The position numbers and the translations under genes were made by a program. Shown here piece after piece: positions 58,347 to 63,931 of a stretch of DNA of 64,000 bases. Where the stretch lies: positions 62,001 to 126,000 of the forward strand of contig CANPXF010000002.1 in the NCBI GenBank assembly GCA_947585745.1, read 5' to 3'. A model generated the notes under the pieces. It saw only the letters and a program-made list of their open reading frames with translations. It searched no databases and was not told the origin of the DNA. The stretch is from an uncultured Clostridia bacterium. Its GTDB lineage: Bacteria; Bacillota; Clostridia; Oscillospirales; Acutalibacteraceae. Position 1 is the first letter of the stretch. Every line of letters begins with the position of its first letter.

Positions 58347-58502
58347 ACTCTTTACTCCCACTCGCTCCCTAAAAGCGTGACTTAAACAATTTTGTATATG
58401 CCATTTCGCTCAGGGTGTCGGGATTATTTAGATTATCCAGATATTATGGAGTATCAAAACTTTTGTTGTCACGGTGTTGTCAGAAAATGATTGCCTCAAA
58501 AC

Positions 58503-58829
58503 TTATATTCTTTTCTTGTACTCCTCTCCCCACGCTTTCATGGAATCAAGAATCGGGCGCATCGATTCACCCAACTCCGACAGCGCATACTCCACTCTCG
58601 GCGGGACTTCAGGATAAACAGTACGGGTAATTAGGCCATCCGCTTCCATCGACCGCAGGCTGTCTGTAAGTACCTTTTGACTGATACCGTCCAAATCTCT
58701 TTGAAGTTCATTGAAACGCCACGGGCGATTAAGCAGATTTCGTATGATTAAAAGTTTCCACTTGTTCCCGATGAGTTGAACAGTAGTCGCTACAGGACAT
58801 TCGGGGATGAGTTCGGCTTTCGTTTTCAT
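58503..58829 (-). CDS. HxlR-family regulator with a single N-terminal cysteine
   Basis: A 108-residue winged-helix protein. It has CPVATTVQLIGNKWKLLIIR, RFNELQRDLDGISQKVLTDSL and a C-terminal wing and helix (YALSELGESMRPILDSMKAW), the HxlR pattern. Its only cysteine, Cys11, is at the position used for thiol sensing in YodB/HypR-type members, so redox or electrophile sensing is plausible. It is divergent from the ACGX operon and probably controls it. The ATG at 58829 has GGAGG upstream. Confidence 0.9.
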   Translation of the reverse strand: MKTKAELIPECPVATTVQLIGNKWKLLIIRNLLNRPWRFNELQRDLDGISQKVLTDSLRSMEADGLITRTVYPEVPPRVEYALSELGESMRPILDSMKAWGEEYKKRI

Positions 58830-58869
58830 AAAGCACCTCCGTTGCATCAGAAAAGAATATTACATTCAT

Positions 58870-58898: not shown

Positions 58899-58970
58899 TA
58901 GCCTAGAACAAATTTATAAAAAATTAAAAGTTTTTTTAATGTTAAAGCGCCCTAAACGCCCAATAGTTAC

Positions 58971-59003
58971 AAAAAAGTGCGTATCCCCATAAAAAAGTGC
59001 GTA
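58971..59003 (+). promoter_or_regulatory. Direct-repeat operator in front of the ACGX operon
   Basis: AAAAAAGTGCGTA occurs at 58971-58983 and again at 58991-59003, exactly 20 bases apart, about two helical turns. The second copy abuts the -35 box of the rightward promoter. A binding site for the divergent HxlR-type regulator is likely. Confidence 0.6.
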
Positions 59004-59004
59004 C

Positions 59005-59032
59005 TTGTGCAGAGAAAAAATTTCCATACAAT
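59005..59032 (+). promoter_or_regulatory. Promoter of the ACGX-peptide operon
   Basis: TTGTGC (59005-59010), 16-base spacer and TACAAT (59027-59032), about 50 bases before the peptide ATG. The repeat operator touches its -35 box. Confidence 0.6.
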
Positions 59033-59084: not shown

Positions 59085-59312
59085 ATGGCACTCTCTAATC
59101 TTGCTGGATGGACTGAGGATAAGTCGGCTTCCGCCTGCGGTGCAGCTTGCGGCGCTTCCGACAAGCCGGAAGAAAAACCTACCGCCTGTGGTTCTGCCTG
59201 TGGCGCCGGTGACAAACCCACCGAGTCTCCTGCTGCTTGCGGTGCTACTGACAAGCCGGAAGAAAAGCCTGCGGCTTGCGGAACTGCCTGCGGAGCCGGG
59301 GATAAGAAGTAA
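59085..59312 (+). CDS. ACGX-repeat cysteine peptide (putative RiPP precursor)
   Basis: A 75-residue peptide: a short leader (MALSNLAGWTEDKSAS) and then seven ACGX units carrying Cys18, 22, 35, 39, 52, 65 and 69. The units come as pairs or singles (ACGAACGA, ACGSACGA, ACGA, ACGTACGA), separated by near-identical linkers such as SDKPEEKPT, GDKPTESPA and TDKPEEKPA. Composition is Ala, Cys, Gly, Lys, Pro and Glu. The next gene is a radical SAM/SPASM enzyme; I recall an NCBI family for this pairing named the ACGX system. AGGAGG lies 8 bases before the ATG. The modification and the final role are unknown. Confidence 0.85.
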   Translation: MALSNLAGWTEDKSASACGAACGASDKPEEKPTACGSACGAGDKPTESPAACGATDKPEEKPAACGTACGAGDKK

Positions 59313-59328
59313 CCTATCATTCCAAACC

Positions 59329-59370
59329 GTTCCCGGTGGGAGCGATCCTGCCGGGAACCACGATTATTTT
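59329..59370 (+). terminator. Hairpin/attenuator between the peptide and the radical SAM gene
   Basis: GTTCCCGG (59329-59336) pairs with CCGGGAAC (59351-59358) and is followed by ATTATTTTT, 17 bases after the peptide stop. A partial terminator here would give more peptide than enzyme, a usual layout in peptide-modification clusters. Confidence 0.65.
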
Positions 59371-59380
59371 TCGGCTCTGC

Positions 59381-59419
59381 CGATAAAACGAAATAAAACC
59401 TGCGGCTTGCGGTGCCTAA
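59381..59419 (+). pseudogene. Decayed extra ACGX repeat
   Basis: GATAAAACGAAATAAAACC, followed by TGCGGCTTGCGGTGCC and TAA, aligns with the DKPEEKPAACG coding repeat of the peptide gene (59247 onward). Small changes and a one-base deletion introduce stops, but the last codons still read KPAACGA and stop. Confidence 0.5.
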
Positions 59420-59424
59420 TTGGG

Positions 59425-59452
59425 CCCCGAAAAGTCGCAAGACTTTTTGGGG
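59425..59452 (+). promoter_or_regulatory. 12-base stem with GCAA tetraloop in front of a strong ribosome-binding site
   Basis: CCCCGAAAAGTC / GACTTTTTGGGG forms a 12-pair stem (one G-U) around a GCAA (GNRA) loop. It runs directly into GAGAGGAGGAG, then a GTG at 59470 that opens a 32-residue frame overlapping the radical SAM start. It could protect or process the downstream mRNA. Confidence 0.5.
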
Positions 59453-59527
59453 AGAGGAGGAGCAACGGCGTGAGCGAGCTTTTCGTGCTTGCACGGAAAC
59501 GAGCGATACAAAGTTTGCGACGACGAG

Positions 59528-60562
59528 ATGAAGCAGTATTTCTCTTTTCAATGGCATATCACGGATGAATGTGACCAGCGGTGCAAACACTGTTATATTT
59601 TCTCCGGGGATAAGTGCCACGAACTCAAAAGCATGACATGGTCGGAGATGGAGGACACCTTTTATAACTGTCTGGACTTCTGCGAGGTGTATGGCCGACT
59701 GCCCTATTTCTATCTCACCGGCGGTGACCCGATCCTGCACCCGGATTTTTGGCGGCTACTGGCTCTGTTCAAGGAATACCATGTCCCCTTTACCATCATG
59801 GGCAATCCGTTTCACTTAAACGATCAAGTATGTCGGGAAATGAAATACTACGGTTGCGAAAAATACCAGCTTTCCCTTGACGGTCTCCATGAGACCCACG
59901 ATTGGTTCCGTAAGCCCGGCTCTTTTGACTGCACGATGGAGAAAATCGGCTGCATTAACCGCTCCGGGATGCGAAGCGTGATCATGACGACGGTATCCAA
60001 AACAAACCGCATGGAAGTGCCGGGAATCATCGATGCGGTGGTAGCGGCGGGAGCAAATGTATTCGCCTTTTCCCGTTATGTTCCCAGCGGCGGCGATCTG
60101 GACTCTTCCATGACACCGCAGGAATACCGGGAACTGCTGGCAATCTGTGATAAGAAATTCAAAGAGTATAAGGCGGAGGGCGCAGAGACTTATTTCAACA
60201 AAAAAGACCACCTCTGGACACTCTACGAGTATGAGACGGGAGCCTTCACGATCCCCGCAGACGCCAAAGAGGGCATGATTTACGGCGGTTGCAACTGTAG
60301 CAACTGCCATATCACGATCCTGCCCACCGGCGATGTGTACGCCTGCCGCCGCGTGGCGGAGAGTAAAGTCGGCAATGTATTTACTGACCGACTGGCGGAT
60401 GTGTGGGTGTGCGAAATGGAGCAGTACCGGGAGTATGATAAATTCGTCAAATGCGGGAAATGCGAACTGAAAGCGTGGTGTCGGGGCTGCCCCGCTGTTG
60501 CCAAGGGAACAAACGGCAGCTTCTATGAAGCAGACCCGCAATGCTGGAAGGAGGTAGGCTGA
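59528..60562 (+). CDS. Radical SAM/SPASM peptide-modifying enzyme (ACGX type)
   Basis: A 344-residue enzyme. The radical SAM cluster CxxxCxxC is Cys15, Cys19 and Cys22 (CDQRCKHC). A GGDP motif (LTGGDPILHPDFW) follows. The C-terminal SPASM domain carries the cysteines of NCSNCHITILPTGDVYACRR and CGKCELKAWCRGC, expected to bind two extra [4Fe-4S] clusters. SPASM enzymes commonly form thioether or other crosslinks in ribosomal peptides, so the adjacent ACGX peptide is the likely substrate. I use the ATG at 59528; a TTG at 59489 would add 13 residues. The stop overlaps the next start (TGATG). Confidence 0.92.
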   Translation: MKQYFSFQWHITDECDQRCKHCYIFSGDKCHELKSMTWSEMEDTFYNCLDFCEVYGRLPYFYLTGGDPILHPDFWRLLALFKEYHVPFTIMGNPFHLNDQVCREMKYYGCEKYQLSLDGLHETHDWFRKPGSFDCTMEKIGCINRSGMRSVIMTTVSKTNRMEVPGIIDAVVAAGANVFAFSRYVPSGGDLDSSMTPQEYRELLAICDKKFKEYKAEGAETYFNKKDHLWTLYEYETGAFTIPADAKEGMIYGGCNCSNCHITILPTGDVYACRRVAESKVGNVFTDRLADVWVCEMEQYREYDKFVKCGKCELKAWCRGCPAVAKGTNGSFYEADPQCWKEVG

Positions 60563-61140
60563 TGGAACTTTTAGAGCTTATGAAATACCGCCGCTCTATC
60601 CGAAAATATCAGGACTGGCAGATTTCCCGTGACGATATGGAAACGATCATCGAAGCAGGAACCTATGCGCCAAACGCAGGAGGCGGTCAGCGCAGTATCA
60701 TTGTCGGCGTTCGAAATGCGGAACTTACCGAGAAAATCGGCAGGCTGAACGTCGCCCGGTTTGACCGTACAAGGCTGTCCGGCAGTTATGTCTCCACCGA
60801 CCAGCCAAGCATCATTGACGATTCAACCATGAAAAGCGGATTCTATGGCGCTCCTGCTGTCTGCATCGTCTTTGCAATGAAAAATTTTCTTTACAGCATC
60901 CCGGACGCCTTTTGCTGTGCCGAAAACATGGTGCTGATGGCAGCGGAGCTTGGCATTTCTTCCTGCGTTATTGCAAGGGGCGAGGAAACCTTTGATAATG
61001 AGATCGGCGCGGCGCTTCTCCGGGAGTGGAATATCCCCGAAAACTATATCGCCCGCTGTTTTGTAATACTCGGATATTGCGACGGCGATTATCCGCAGCC
61101 GAAGCTGAGGAAAGCGCACCGGGCAAAAATCATTGAATGA
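60562..61140 (+). CDS. Nitroreductase-family flavoprotein of the ACGX operon
   Basis: A 192-residue FMN protein beginning MELLELMKYRRSIRKYQDW. It has TYAPNAGGGQRSIIVGV and AENMVLMAAELGISSCVIARG, typical of the family. It overlaps the radical SAM stop, so translation is coupled. It may deliver electrons to the radical SAM enzyme or act on the peptide itself; neither is shown. AAGGAGG precedes the ATG. Confidence 0.9.
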   Translation: MELLELMKYRRSIRKYQDWQISRDDMETIIEAGTYAPNAGGGQRSIIVGVRNAELTEKIGRLNVARFDRTRLSGSYVSTDQPSIIDDSTMKSGFYGAPAVCIVFAMKNFLYSIPDAFCCAENMVLMAAELGISSCVIARGEETFDNEIGAALLREWNIPENYIARCFVILGYCDGDYPQPKLRKAHRAKIIE

Positions 61141-61150
61141 GGTGTTTAGA

Positions 61151-61768
61151 ATGGACGCACAAACTTGTCTAAAAAAATTAGAATATGTCGGCGTACTGGC
61201 TTTTGCCACGGTGGACAAAAACGGCGCGCCGCAGATACGCAATATCTCCGCAATCCACTACGAGCCGAACAGAATGATCTTCTTCACCGCAAAAGGGAAA
61301 GCCTTCTGTGAGGAACTTCTGACCGACGGGCGCGTACAGGTGCTGGGTTACACCAAGTATAAAGAAATGATCCGCCTGTCCGCAAAGGCGATTCCCGTCC
61401 CGGAGGACAAACAGGAAAAGTGGATCGACACGATTTTTGCAGAGCAGCCCTATCTCTCGAATGTCTACCCCGGCGACACCCGAAAAATGGCGGGGATCGT
61501 CTTTGAGATCAGGGATACGGAAATCGAGTATTTCAATCTCGGCGTCAACCCGATTTTTCGGGAGAGCTACACGATTGGTGCAGGAAACCTCACCCAAAAG
61601 GGATATGTCATTTCCGAAAAATGTATCGGCTGCGGAAAGTGTTTGAAAAACTGTCCCCAGCGGTGCATTGAGCTGGGGACACCCTACTGTATTCAGCAAA
61701 ATCATTGCTTACACTGCGGAAACTGCTTTGCGGTTTGCCCGGTAAAGGCGATAGAAAAGCGGGGATAA
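61151..61768 (+). CDS. FMN-binding (PNPOx-like) / two-[4Fe-4S] ferredoxin fusion
   Basis: A 205-residue fusion. Residues 1-150 resemble the pyridoxamine 5'-phosphate oxidase-like flavin fold (GVLAFATVDKNGAPQIRNIS, shown in part). The C-terminal 55 residues carry two ferredoxin motifs, CIGCGKCLKNC and CLHCGNCFAVC. It is therefore a small electron-transfer unit and a good candidate reductant for the upstream radical SAM enzyme. The ATG at 61151 has GAGGTG upstream. Confidence 0.9.
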   Translation: MDAQTCLKKLEYVGVLAFATVDKNGAPQIRNISAIHYEPNRMIFFTAKGKAFCEELLTDGRVQVLGYTKYKEMIRLSAKAIPVPEDKQEKWIDTIFAEQPYLSNVYPGDTRKMAGIVFEIRDTEIEYFNLGVNPIFRESYTIGAGNLTQKGYVISEKCIGCGKCLKNCPQRCIELGTPYCIQQNHCLHCGNCFAVCPVKAIEKRG

Positions 61769-61769
61769 C

Positions 61770-62531
61770 ATGACACAAGACAAAAGAAGAATTTTTCTCA
61801 TAAAGAGGTTGCTTTCCGAGCAATCCCAGTATCGGGATTTGCACATTCCTGTCGATGAAGCGGGGCAGAAAATGCTGCTCCGCTCCCTGCTGAACGTCCG
61901 CCCGCCATATCCCATTTGGGAGGATTTTCTGGTGGTGCAGGACGCATATTTGCAGGAGGAAACCGCCCGGAAAGGCGTTACGGATATAGCTGATTTGACG
62001 CCTGTTGAGCCAGGTATCTATCTCTGGCAGGGCGACATTACCACTTTGAAATGCGGCGCTATAGTAAACGCCGCAAATTCTGGCATGACCGGCTGCTATG
62101 CTCCCTGTCACGGCTGTATCGACAACGCCATTCACACCTACGCCGGGGTACAGCTTCGGCTTGCCTGTGCCGAGATGATGAAAAAGCAGGGGCACAAGGA
62201 GCCGACCGGACTGGCAAAAATCACGCCCACCTACAATTTGCCCTGCGAGTATGTTCTGCATACCGTCGGCCCGATCATTTACGGTCATGTGACACAAAAG
62301 GATCGGAAACTGCTTGCCTCCTGCTATCGTTCCTGCCTGGAACTGGCGCAGCAAAACGGAATCGGGAGCGTGGCGTTCTGCTGTATTTCTACGGGGGAAT
62401 TTCATTTTCCGAATGACGAGGCCGCAAAAATCGCCGTGGACACAGTGCGGCAATATAAAGGCAACATGGAGGTGATCTTCAATGTTTTCAAAGATGTCGA
62501 TTACAAAATCTACCGTGAGCTACTCGGATAA
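61770..62531 (+). CDS. Zinc-type macrodomain ADP-ribose hydrolase
   Basis: A 253-residue macrodomain protein. The ADP-ribose-binding region is AIVNAANSG (about 97-105), followed by GCYAPCHGCIDNAIH (108-122), the Cys/His metal-binding signature of SirTM-linked macrodomains. The N-terminal 80-residue helical extension is also typical. Enzymes of this type remove mono-ADP-ribose added by SirTM. It overlaps the sirtuin gene by 50 bases, so the two are translationally coupled. Codon and base composition match the island. Confidence 0.93.
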   Translation: MTQDKRRIFLIKRLLSEQSQYRDLHIPVDEAGQKMLLRSLLNVRPPYPIWEDFLVVQDAYLQEETARKGVTDIADLTPVEPGIYLWQGDITTLKCGAIVNAANSGMTGCYAPCHGCIDNAIHTYAGVQLRLACAEMMKKQGHKEPTGLAKITPTYNLPCEYVLHTVGPIIYGHVTQKDRKLLASCYRSCLELAQQNGIGSVAFCCISTGEFHFPNDEAAKIAVDTVRQYKGNMEVIFNVFKDVDYKIYRELLG

Positions 62532-63351
62532 CGTATACCGCCTTCAGGAAGCGCTGGATAAATCGGACGCCGTTGTGGTAGGCGCTGGCGCAGGCCTGTC
62601 TACCTCGGCGGGATTTACCTATTCGGGCGACCGTTTCCGCCAATATTTTGCAGACTTTGAAAAGAAATACGGCTTTCACGATATGTATTCGGGTGCGTTT
62701 TGCCGTTATGATACGCCGGAAGAGCATTGGGCATATTGGAGCCGGTTTATCACGGTCAACCGCTATATGGATGCGCCAAAGCCCGTCTATGAGCAGGTTT
62801 TTGACCTTGTGCGGAATAAGGACTATTTTATCATCACCACGAACGTGGATCACTGTTTTCAGAAAGCTGGCGTGGATAAAAAGCGGCTTTTCTACACGCA
62901 GGGCGACTATGGGCTATTCCAATGCTCCAGGCCATGCTGTCAAAAGACCTTCGATAATGAGAGCATGATTCGGCAAATGATGGAGCGGCAGAAAGATATG
63001 CGGATTCCGTCCGAACTGCTGCCCGTCTGCCAGCATTGCGGAAAGCCCATGACGATTAATCTGCGCTCCGACGATACCTTTGTGGAGGACGAGGGCTGGC
63101 ACGAGGCGGCAGAGCGGTACAAAAACTTCCTGAGTACACGGAGAAACGGACTGATTCTGTTCCTTGAACTCGGCGTCGGGTACAACACGCCGGTTATTAT
63201 TAAATATCCGTTTTGGCGTATGACTGCACAAAACAAGGCGGCGACCTATGCCTGCATCAACTACGGCGAAGCGGTCTGCCCGACGGAGATTGAAAAGCAG
63301 TCGATTTGCATTGATGCGGATATTGGCAAGGCTCTGGAAGATTTGAGGTAA
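62482..63351 (+). CDS. M-class sirtuin (SirTM-like protein ADP-ribosyltransferase)
   Basis: A 289-residue Sir2-fold protein with GAGAGLSTSAG (34-44), TTNVDHCFQKAG (119-130) and YTQGDYGLFQCS (138-149). The catalytic His of deacetylase sirtuins is replaced by the Gln140 context, as in SirTM enzymes that ADP-ribosylate lipoylated GcvH-L. A zinc-ribbon-like set of cysteines (CSRPCC and CQHCGKP) follows. Start at 62482 has GGAGGTGA upstream. Substrate here is unknown because no GcvH-L or LplA2 gene is in the window. Confidence 0.92.
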   Translation: MFSKMSITKSTVSYSDNVYRLQEALDKSDAVVVGAGAGLSTSAGFTYSGDRFRQYFADFEKKYGFHDMYSGAFCRYDTPEEHWAYWSRFITVNRYMDAPKPVYEQVFDLVRNKDYFIITTNVDHCFQKAGVDKKRLFYTQGDYGLFQCSRPCCQKTFDNESMIRQMMERQKDMRIPSELLPVCQHCGKPMTINLRSDDTFVEDEGWHEAAERYKNFLSTRRNGLILFLELGVGYNTPVIIKYPFWRMTAQNKAATYACINYGEAVCPTEIEKQSICIDADIGKALEDLR

Positions 63352-63355
63352 GGCT

Positions 63356-63931
63356 ATGCACGATATTTGGAACCCGTGGCACGGGTGCGTGAAATGCAGC
63401 GAGGGCTGCCAGCATTGCTATATGTATTTCCTCGACCGTGTTCGTGACCGAAACGGCGCCGATATTTACAAAACAAAATCGGGCTTCACCTATCCCGTTC
63501 AAAGAAACCGAAACGGCTCTTATAAAATCCAAAGTGGGGAGCTGATCCGTGTCTGTATGTCCTCGGATTTCTTTTTGGAGGAAGCGGACGAATGGCGGAG
63601 TGATGCGTGGGAGATGAGGCAACGTAGCGACGTGAAATTCTTTCTTCTGACCAAGCGCCCGCAGCGGGTCAAGAACTGTCTGCCAAAGGACTGGGGCGAC
63701 GGCTGGGAAAACATCATGTTCAACGTCACCTGTGAAAATCAGCGCCGAGCCGATGAGCGTATCCCGATCCTGCTTTCGCTGCCCTTCAAGCACAAGGGAA
63801 TTATGTTTGCGCCGTTTATCGGTGCAGTCAGCATCGAAAAATACCTCGGTGACGGGCAGATCGAACATGTCATCTGCGGCGGCGAAAATTACGACGGCGC
63901 AAGGCAGTATAGTATATTTTCTCTGTATTAG
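63356..63931 (+). pseudogene. DUF5131 (Gp37/Gp68-like) gene, truncated at the C-terminus
   Basis: A 191-residue reading with the family start IWNPWHGCVKCSEGCQHCYMY (shown in part), whose closely spaced cysteines resemble a radical-SAM-type cluster site. It continues with FFLLTKRPQRV and ICGGENYDGAR, where homologues go on for about another 50-60 residues. Here the frame changes to QYSIFSLY and stops, and the following DNA is AT-rich and unlike the gene. The C-terminus has therefore been lost by a junction near 63903. Function is unknown. Confidence 0.75.

Follow-up and report, generated by a model that had tools for sequence, protein, structure and literature searches.

We analyzed a 64,000-nucleotide stretch of DNA (the window; positions below are counted from its first letter) from an uncultured Clostridia bacterium (Bacillota; Clostridia; Oscillospirales; Acutalibacteraceae), taken from contig CANPXF010000002.1 of assembly GCA_947585745.1. 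Close to its 3′ end lies a cassette that pairs an ACGX-repeat peptide (AcgA) and its radical SAM/SPASM enzyme (AcgM) with a zinc-loop macrodomain (Zn-macrodomain) and a class M sirtuin (SirTM). The genes and sites of the cassette are as follows.

58503..58847, minus strand: divergent HxlR/DUF24 regulator (PF01638, 113 bits; PDB matches including HypR, 4a5m/4a5n)
58966..58984, plus strand: upstream copy of the likely operator, GTTACAAAAAAGTGCGTAT
58989..59007, plus strand: likely operator, ATAAAAAAGTGCGTACTTG, with the core AAGTGCGTACTT at 58995-59006
59085..59312, plus strand: AcgA, ACGX-repeat peptide of 75 residues with the leader MALSNLAGW (TIGR04341, target_ACGX)
59528..60562, plus strand: AcgM, radical SAM/SPASM enzyme of the ACGX system (TIGR04340, PF04055, PF13186)
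60562..61140, plus strand: nitroreductase-family flavoprotein (PF00881, 67.5 bits)
61151..61768, plus strand: PNPOx-like flavin domain fused to a 2[4Fe-4S] ferredoxin (PNPOx-Fd; PF01243, PF00037)
61770..62531, plus strand: Zn-macrodomain, predicted protein-ADP-ribose hydrolase (NF003163; PDB 8rsi/5kiv)
62482..63351, plus strand: SirTM, with QG replacing HG, predicted ADP-ribosyltransferase (PDB 5a3a)
63356..63931, plus strand: DUF5131 protein, shortened to 191 residues compared with about 290 in relatives (PF07505, 101.8 bits)

Both members of the ACGX pair scored well above their curated NCBIfam cut-offs, AcgA with 80.1 bits against TIGR04341 (cut-off 28) and AcgM with 575.1 bits against TIGR04340 (rSAM_ACGX; cut-off 400). 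A first-pass annotation of this DNA, made from the letters alone, had described a peptide followed by a SPASM radical SAM enzyme and had taken the pairing to be one named by NCBI; both statements are borne out, the names being acgA and acgM. The start of AcgM is most likely ATG 59528, because the match to the family model sets in at residue 16 of the longer open reading frame (ORF). The seven ACGX units claimed for the 75-residue peptide are also real and are laid out as pair, pair, single, pair, with ACG at residues 17, 21, 34, 38, 51, 64 and 68. Synonymous codons differ between these units and the protein unit is fixed; the repeat is therefore kept at the protein level and does not reflect a recent slip of the DNA. 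Among 92 distinct peptides of relatives, some of them truncated at contig ends, 588 of 596 cysteines sit in an xCG unit, 565 of them in a strict ACG[ASTV] unit, and the leader M[AS]L...W is present in 84 of the 85 peptides with a readable start. The number of cysteines ranges from 2 to 12 per peptide, and the distances between them (at least 513 gaps) are dominated by gaps of 3 residues (213) and 12 residues (246). A fixed unit and leader with a floating copy number are as expected of a substrate that is modified unit by unit.

The gap between the peptide and AcgM genes (59313-59527) is long in the window compared with a median of about 96 bases elsewhere (95 loci). It also contains a stray peptide tail, KPAACGA-stop, and the following hairpin.

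59425..59452, plus strand: near-perfect hairpin (one G-U pair), CCCCGAAAAGTC-GCAA-GACTTTTTGGGG

An element like the one in the window's gap was seen in the corresponding gaps of loci L035, L039, L041/L212 and L046.

Since the sequence relatives of AcgM in the PDB are weak (SkfB, 45 bits), a structure model was built, with a mean predicted local distance difference test (pLDDT) score of 90.2. The modeled fold is closest to CteB and is also near anSME and SuiB; such kinship in a predicted fold does not decide the chemistry of AcgM. CteB and anSME both act on cysteine. In contrast to CteB/SCIFF and other SPASM peptide maturases, to which it is 18% identical, AcgM would act on a multi-repeat ACGX peptide.

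The radical SAM gene overlaps the nitroreductase gene within TGATG, as the first-pass annotation had noted. Both flavin/iron-sulfur partners proved genuine: the nitroreductase (PF00881) and, likely starting at ATG 61151, the PNPOx/2[4Fe-4S] fusion. Such partners recur with the ACGX pair. The slot after acgM varies among relatives, where it holds a nitroreductase of the window type, a nitroreductase 39-46% identical to it, or a zinc-binding dehydrogenase. Because unlike oxidoreductases occupy this slot, they are better explained as redox-stress cargo than as a fixed step of tailoring or electron supply. The unit had been thought to end at 61768; however, the next gene begins one base past that stop. 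What stands of the earlier interpretation is an ACGX/SPASM pair with flavin and iron-sulfur partners. A self-contained unit does not stand, because the cassette starts at the divergent HxlR gene and runs into the Zn-macrodomain and SirTM genes. The peptide/radical SAM pairing is thus already named, and its continuation into the Zn-macrodomain and SirTM genes had been missed.

The Zn-macrodomain scored 350.3 bits against NF003163 (cut-off 272), with 8rsi and 5kiv as its best solved relatives. It retains the zinc motif GCYAPCHGC; C109, H114 and C116 of the zinc loop C-x4-H-x-C are present in all aligned rows, and the loop is present in all 43 distinct linked Zn-macrodomains. The best solved relative of the sirtuin is the SirTM 5a3a (237 bits), which we take to be of streptococcal origin. 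The class M mark, Q140-G141, is invariant in the aligned rows, and all 54 distinct SirTMs from linked loci carry QG. The two genes overlap by 50 bases in the window and lie side by side on one strand in 36 of the 37 named loci that have both.

Recurrence was examined in 80 named loci, the best 80 of 441 relatives, with linkage counted by tblastn. The two genome collections share some loci (for example, L041 and L212), and rows are not fully independent. In all 59 loci with at least 1500 bases upstream, both the peptide and a divergent HxlR gene were present, which agrees with the proposal that peptide and enzyme occur together in other genomes. A macrodomain or SirTM gene followed on the same strand within 6 kb in 34 of the 46 loci with at least 5 kb downstream, and in 35 of them when either side was counted. 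L040, L045, L051, L054, L060, L062, L073, L078, L081, L095 and L106 have neither gene on either side, and the same-strand downstream count additionally misses L068. The AcgM-Zn-macrodomain link persists at 54-57% AcgM identity (G639, G067, G031 and G341); in G349, whose AcgM is 53% identical, the Zn-macrodomain lies on a different contig.

Co-occurrence was then counted over 394 genomes of the order. AcgM was found above its cut-off in 25 genomes, the Zn-macrodomain in 88 and both in 22, so that the Zn-macrodomain is present in 22 of 25 AcgM genomes compared with 66 of 369 others (Fisher p = 6.5e-13). The AcgM-lacking class of this table includes G340, which has a split AcgM below the cut-off and no Zn-macrodomain, and G201 and G273, which have AcgM fragments and a Zn-macrodomain. 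Stratification by family gave 22 observed co-occurrences against 8.7 expected (p = 5e-9), with family sizes entered by hand and only three of 39 unlisted genomes added. The two genes are at most 3 kb apart in 15 of 26 AcgM genomes, G340 included (judged by eye; on opposite strands in G282). A control radical SAM/peptide family, TIGR04115, was found in three of the 394 genomes, none with a Zn-macrodomain, which is too few to count. Across the class, 12 of the 73 Zn-macrodomain loci that were fetched carry AcgM in the same stretch, plus the window. Grouped by protein clusters, whose counts are lower bounds, with gene orders from a greedy longest-ORF choice that took some antisense ORFs in this GC-rich block, 59 of 74 Zn-macrodomain loci have SirTM, 24 have a PNPOx-like gene and 23 have HxlR; HxlR was found by tblastn in 34 of 73. 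In a quick tree of 64 SirTMs, all 20 ACGX-linked members fall within one part of 39 rows (support 82, not starred). The ACGX-link label requires at least 10 changes on this tree, four of them forced by starred branches, which indicates that the link was made or lost repeatedly and was not inherited once.

The regulator and the DNA before the peptide gene are conserved with the cassette. Cys17 of the HxlR protein matches the redox cysteine of HypR 4a5m (a serine in 4a5n) and is present in all 69 rows of relatives; by this conserved N-terminal cysteine the protein resembles regulators of the HypR type, and redox sensing is predicted. In HypR-type DUF24 regulators the N-terminal cysteine senses thiol stress, according to PMC6943732. 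GCGTACTT was found in 79 of 81 distinct upstream regions. In 91 regions the core AAGTGCGTACTT starts 81-109 bases ahead of the peptide ATG; 66 of these cores are exact, 18 have one mismatch and seven have two. The window's own genome has one exact core, the one here, and five cores with one mismatch; a control pattern matched four times. All 12 ACGX-linked Zn-macrodomain loci contain the core with no more than one mismatch. We infer that this conserved site is the HxlR operator.

The cassette differs in base composition from the DNA around it. The guanine-cytosine (GC) content is 51.8% in 59085-63931 compared with 38.4% in window positions 1-58400, where no 5-kb stretch exceeds 42.3%; it steps up near 58400 and down at about 63930. 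The genes for HxlR, AcgA, AcgM, the flavin proteins, Zn-macrodomain, SirTM and DUF5131 were probably imported together. Cassettes with AcgM identity of up to 96% are found in records whose titles include Lachnospiraceae and Oscillospiraceae, among others; many of these records bear isolate names in 'Lapin', taken here to mean rabbit. ACGX units also occur on plasmids of Roseburia, Subdoligranulum and the archaeon Methanosphaera (four matches among plasmid records, two of them versions of one plasmid). The plasmid record of Roseburia sp. 831b annotates acgA and acgM, and its gene order is identical to that of the window up to SirTM. Carriage by phages was considered and set aside, as 50,697 phage records gave no match at E 1e-40.

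Several further observations concern the borders and carriers of the block. The DUF5131 gene begins four bases after SirTM and is shortened where the high-GC block ends on its 3′ side; DUF5131 directly follows SirTM in L043, L049, L079, L087, L093 and L126 as well, and one member of the family weakly matches radical SAM mobile pair protein A (28.8 bits against a cut-off of 355). The low-GC DNA past DUF5131 (L002 6356-9700) contains, as judged by eye, a short helix-turn-helix-type frame, a restriction-enzyme-like frame and a DNA methylase, and is perhaps a later insertion. Past the window's end, L002 11881-16750 has, as judged by eye, sigma-factor-like frames together with a tyrosine integrase resembling that of Tn916; they may be what is left of the element that carried the cassette in. 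On plasmid pNP174 of Methanosphaera sp. ISO3-F5 (L236), AcgM of the archaeal ACGX unit is split over two annotated genes, and the unit adjoins a zinc-binding dehydrogenase and lies near BREX genes.

The nearest described arrangement is the extended SirTM operon of Lactobacillales and Staphylococcaceae, which consists of GcvH-L, LplA2, Zn-macrodomain, SirTM, OYE and LLM (PMC4518038, PMC11490716). Like the window cassette, it combines a Zn-macrodomain and SirTM with two proteins of flavin oxidoreductase type and a small sulfur-bearing protein. In contrast, the window cassette has the ACGX peptide and a radical SAM enzyme, has a nitroreductase and PNPOx-Fd in place of OYE and LLM, and has a divergent HxlR gene; a profile search of the cassette genes found neither GcvH-L nor LplA2, so that the lipoyl-type operon was not encountered here. 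The thiol-stress regulons of HypR/DUF24 type in Bacillus (PMC6943732) share with the window an N-terminal cysteine regulator beside genes of flavin reductase type, but the regulator of the window adjoins a peptide-maturase and ADP-ribosylation operon. The NCBIfam families, for their part, name the ACGX pair only. Our literature searches, from whose coverage subscription papers mostly fell out, returned no paper on the product, chemistry or function of the ACGX system or on a link to SirTM.

Taken together, these data led us to a putative mechanism that we favor tentatively, as somewhat less than an even prospect: in a probably horizontally acquired operon under a likely thiol-sensing HxlR regulator, SirTM would ADP-ribosylate AcgM-modified AcgA and the Zn-macrodomain would remove the tag. 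Thiol or electrophile stress would oxidize Cys17 of HxlR and open the promoter. AcgM would then bind the MALSNLxxW leader and modify the ACGX cysteines, probably by a thioether or another cysteine-centered change. The modified AcgA may serve as an intracellular multi-site sulfur carrier or scavenger attended by the flavin reductases; ADP-ribosylation by SirTM, either at a cysteine or at an acidic residue close to each unit, would hold it off, and the Zn-macrodomain would switch it on. AcgA would thereby take the role that lipoyl-GcvH-L has in the staphylococcal and streptococcal SirTM operons.

The question of the sirtuin's substrate bears directly on this proposal. According to PMC11490716, lipoylated GcvH-L is the only known SirTM target and the targets of other SirTM/Zn-macrodomain systems are unknown; Zn-macrodomains from SirTM pairs outside the GcvH-L operon are reportedly inactive on GcvH-L, and Zn-macrodomains are reported as the sole known hydrolases that cleave Cys-ADP-ribose. 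We searched 37 genomes (the 26 AcgM genomes of the order, 10 of the class and G584, which has a remnant only) and found a clear GcvH (>100 bits) in two, the same two that have the lipoate ligase TIGR00545. The window's genome gave no TIGR00545 hit and a best GcvH match of 20.2 bits, below the cut-off. GcvH-L was therefore rejected as the general target, as 35 of 37 genomes have no clear GcvH, and the majority of these sirtuins must act on something else. As judged by eye in the 45 largest clusters of the class-wide Zn-macrodomain loci, no carrier-like product apart from the ACGX peptide recurs beside these SirTMs.

A number of observations weigh against the proposed relation between sirtuin and peptide. 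The Zn-macrodomain lies elsewhere in seven of 26 AcgM genomes, two of them at contig ends, and is lacking in three of 25 (four of 26 with the split-gene G340). Conversely, 61 of the 73 class-wide Zn-macrodomain loci have no AcgM, some of these stretches being cut by contig ends; SirTM thus does not need ACGX. L132 and L227 have lost acgM and kept Zn-macrodomain and SirTM, and the archaeal plasmid unit has no SirTM within 7 kb. According to PMC4518038 and PMC11490716, the ADP-ribose of GcvH-L sits on acidic residues and not on sulfur. Nine of the 37 genomes exceed the Pfam GcvH cut-off, seven of them weakly (21-29 bits over short stretches), which we take to be matches to biotin-carrier-type domains; the lipoate ligase search covered TIGR00545 and left out other families, and we count this against the proposal too. 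The core, with at most one mismatch, also occurs in 20 of 61 unlinked Zn-macrodomain loci, and in 12 of these 20 an HxlR gene lies no more than 250 bases from it; shared stress control alone could therefore explain the ACGX link. We interpret this as an old Zn-macrodomain/SirTM redox module under HxlR control that accommodates the ACGX unit; it also gives the competing view of mere co-regulation its best support. Finally, no site was found at the separate Zn-macrodomain operons L164 and L220-L223, the five of seven with readable upstream DNA (L224 and L225 start at the Zn-macrodomain gene and cannot be judged), which speaks against one regulon in these five genomes. With regard to the loci mentioned, L132 and L227 retain HxlR, the upstream site, PNPOx, Zn-macrodomain and SirTM; L132 also has a piece of the peptide and of the nitroreductase, and L227 a whole nitroreductase and a 3′ acgM fragment. 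A gene for an Rrf2-like regulator, seen by eye near the ACGX-free Zn-macrodomain/SirTM loci L128, L137, L147, L167, L170, L172 and L211, appears to be a second redox-type control at such loci.

The strongest competing explanation, which we regard as a serious possibility though one that probably does not hold, is a shared stress regulon. In this view, the ACGX unit and the SirTM/Zn-macrodomain pair would be separate thiol-stress modules that travel together and are switched together by HxlR, the modified peptide being a scavenger of sulfur or electrophiles and SirTM acting on another protein. The HxlR genes and sites at ACGX-free loci described above speak for it, as do the PNPOx-like genes that recur there, and the exchange of unlike oxidoreductases in the slot after acgM suggests that the cassette collects redox genes. 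However, of the 11 AcgM genomes in which the two genes are not adjacent, seven have a Zn-macrodomain elsewhere, above the baseline of 66 in 369, and the two at contig ends are perhaps adjacent after all; nor did the 45 largest clusters show any carrier-like protein other than the ACGX peptide.

Two further explanations were weighed. The regular cysteine spacings of 3 and 12 residues, the near-confinement of cysteine to xCG units and an AcgM fold near CteB and anSME would suit modified ACGX cysteines that bind a metal or redox cofactor, with SirTM incidental, but we found no metal transporter or metalloregulator by eye in the 40 largest neighbor clusters, and the regulator belongs to the redox DUF24 kind; we consider this improbable. 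We consider it more improbable still that AcgA is an exported ribosomally synthesized and post-translationally modified peptide of the sactipeptide or ranthipeptide type aimed at competitors. The SPASM enzyme does have relatives of the sactipeptide type, and a gut Ruminococcus reportedly makes such a peptide (PMC6779426). Nevertheless, the cassette has no exporter or leader peptidase, and none is common in the 40 largest clusters of 117 loci (by eye), in which no protease was seen and transporters were seen in at most seven loci (MATE type in seven, ABC ATPase in five). No run of 12 hydrophobic residues occurs in the 92 distinct peptides. Export was set aside as unlikely.

Returning to the ADP-ribosylated peptide, the cassette could represent a second kind of SirTM operon, in which the ACGX peptide would be the first radical-SAM-modified ribosomal peptide to be reversibly ADP-ribosylated, a multi-site thiol carrier replacing lipoyl-GcvH-L and plausibly tagged through Cys-ADP-ribose; we consider this wider claim possible but distinctly doubtful. 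The link between ACGX and SirTM offers one testable answer to two questions, namely what the SirTM/Zn-macrodomain pairs outside the GcvH-L operon act on and what the ACGX peptide does. If true, it would join radical SAM peptide maturation to ADP-ribosylation signaling; the cassette itself is widespread among gut-derived Clostridia genomes and seems to be mobile there.

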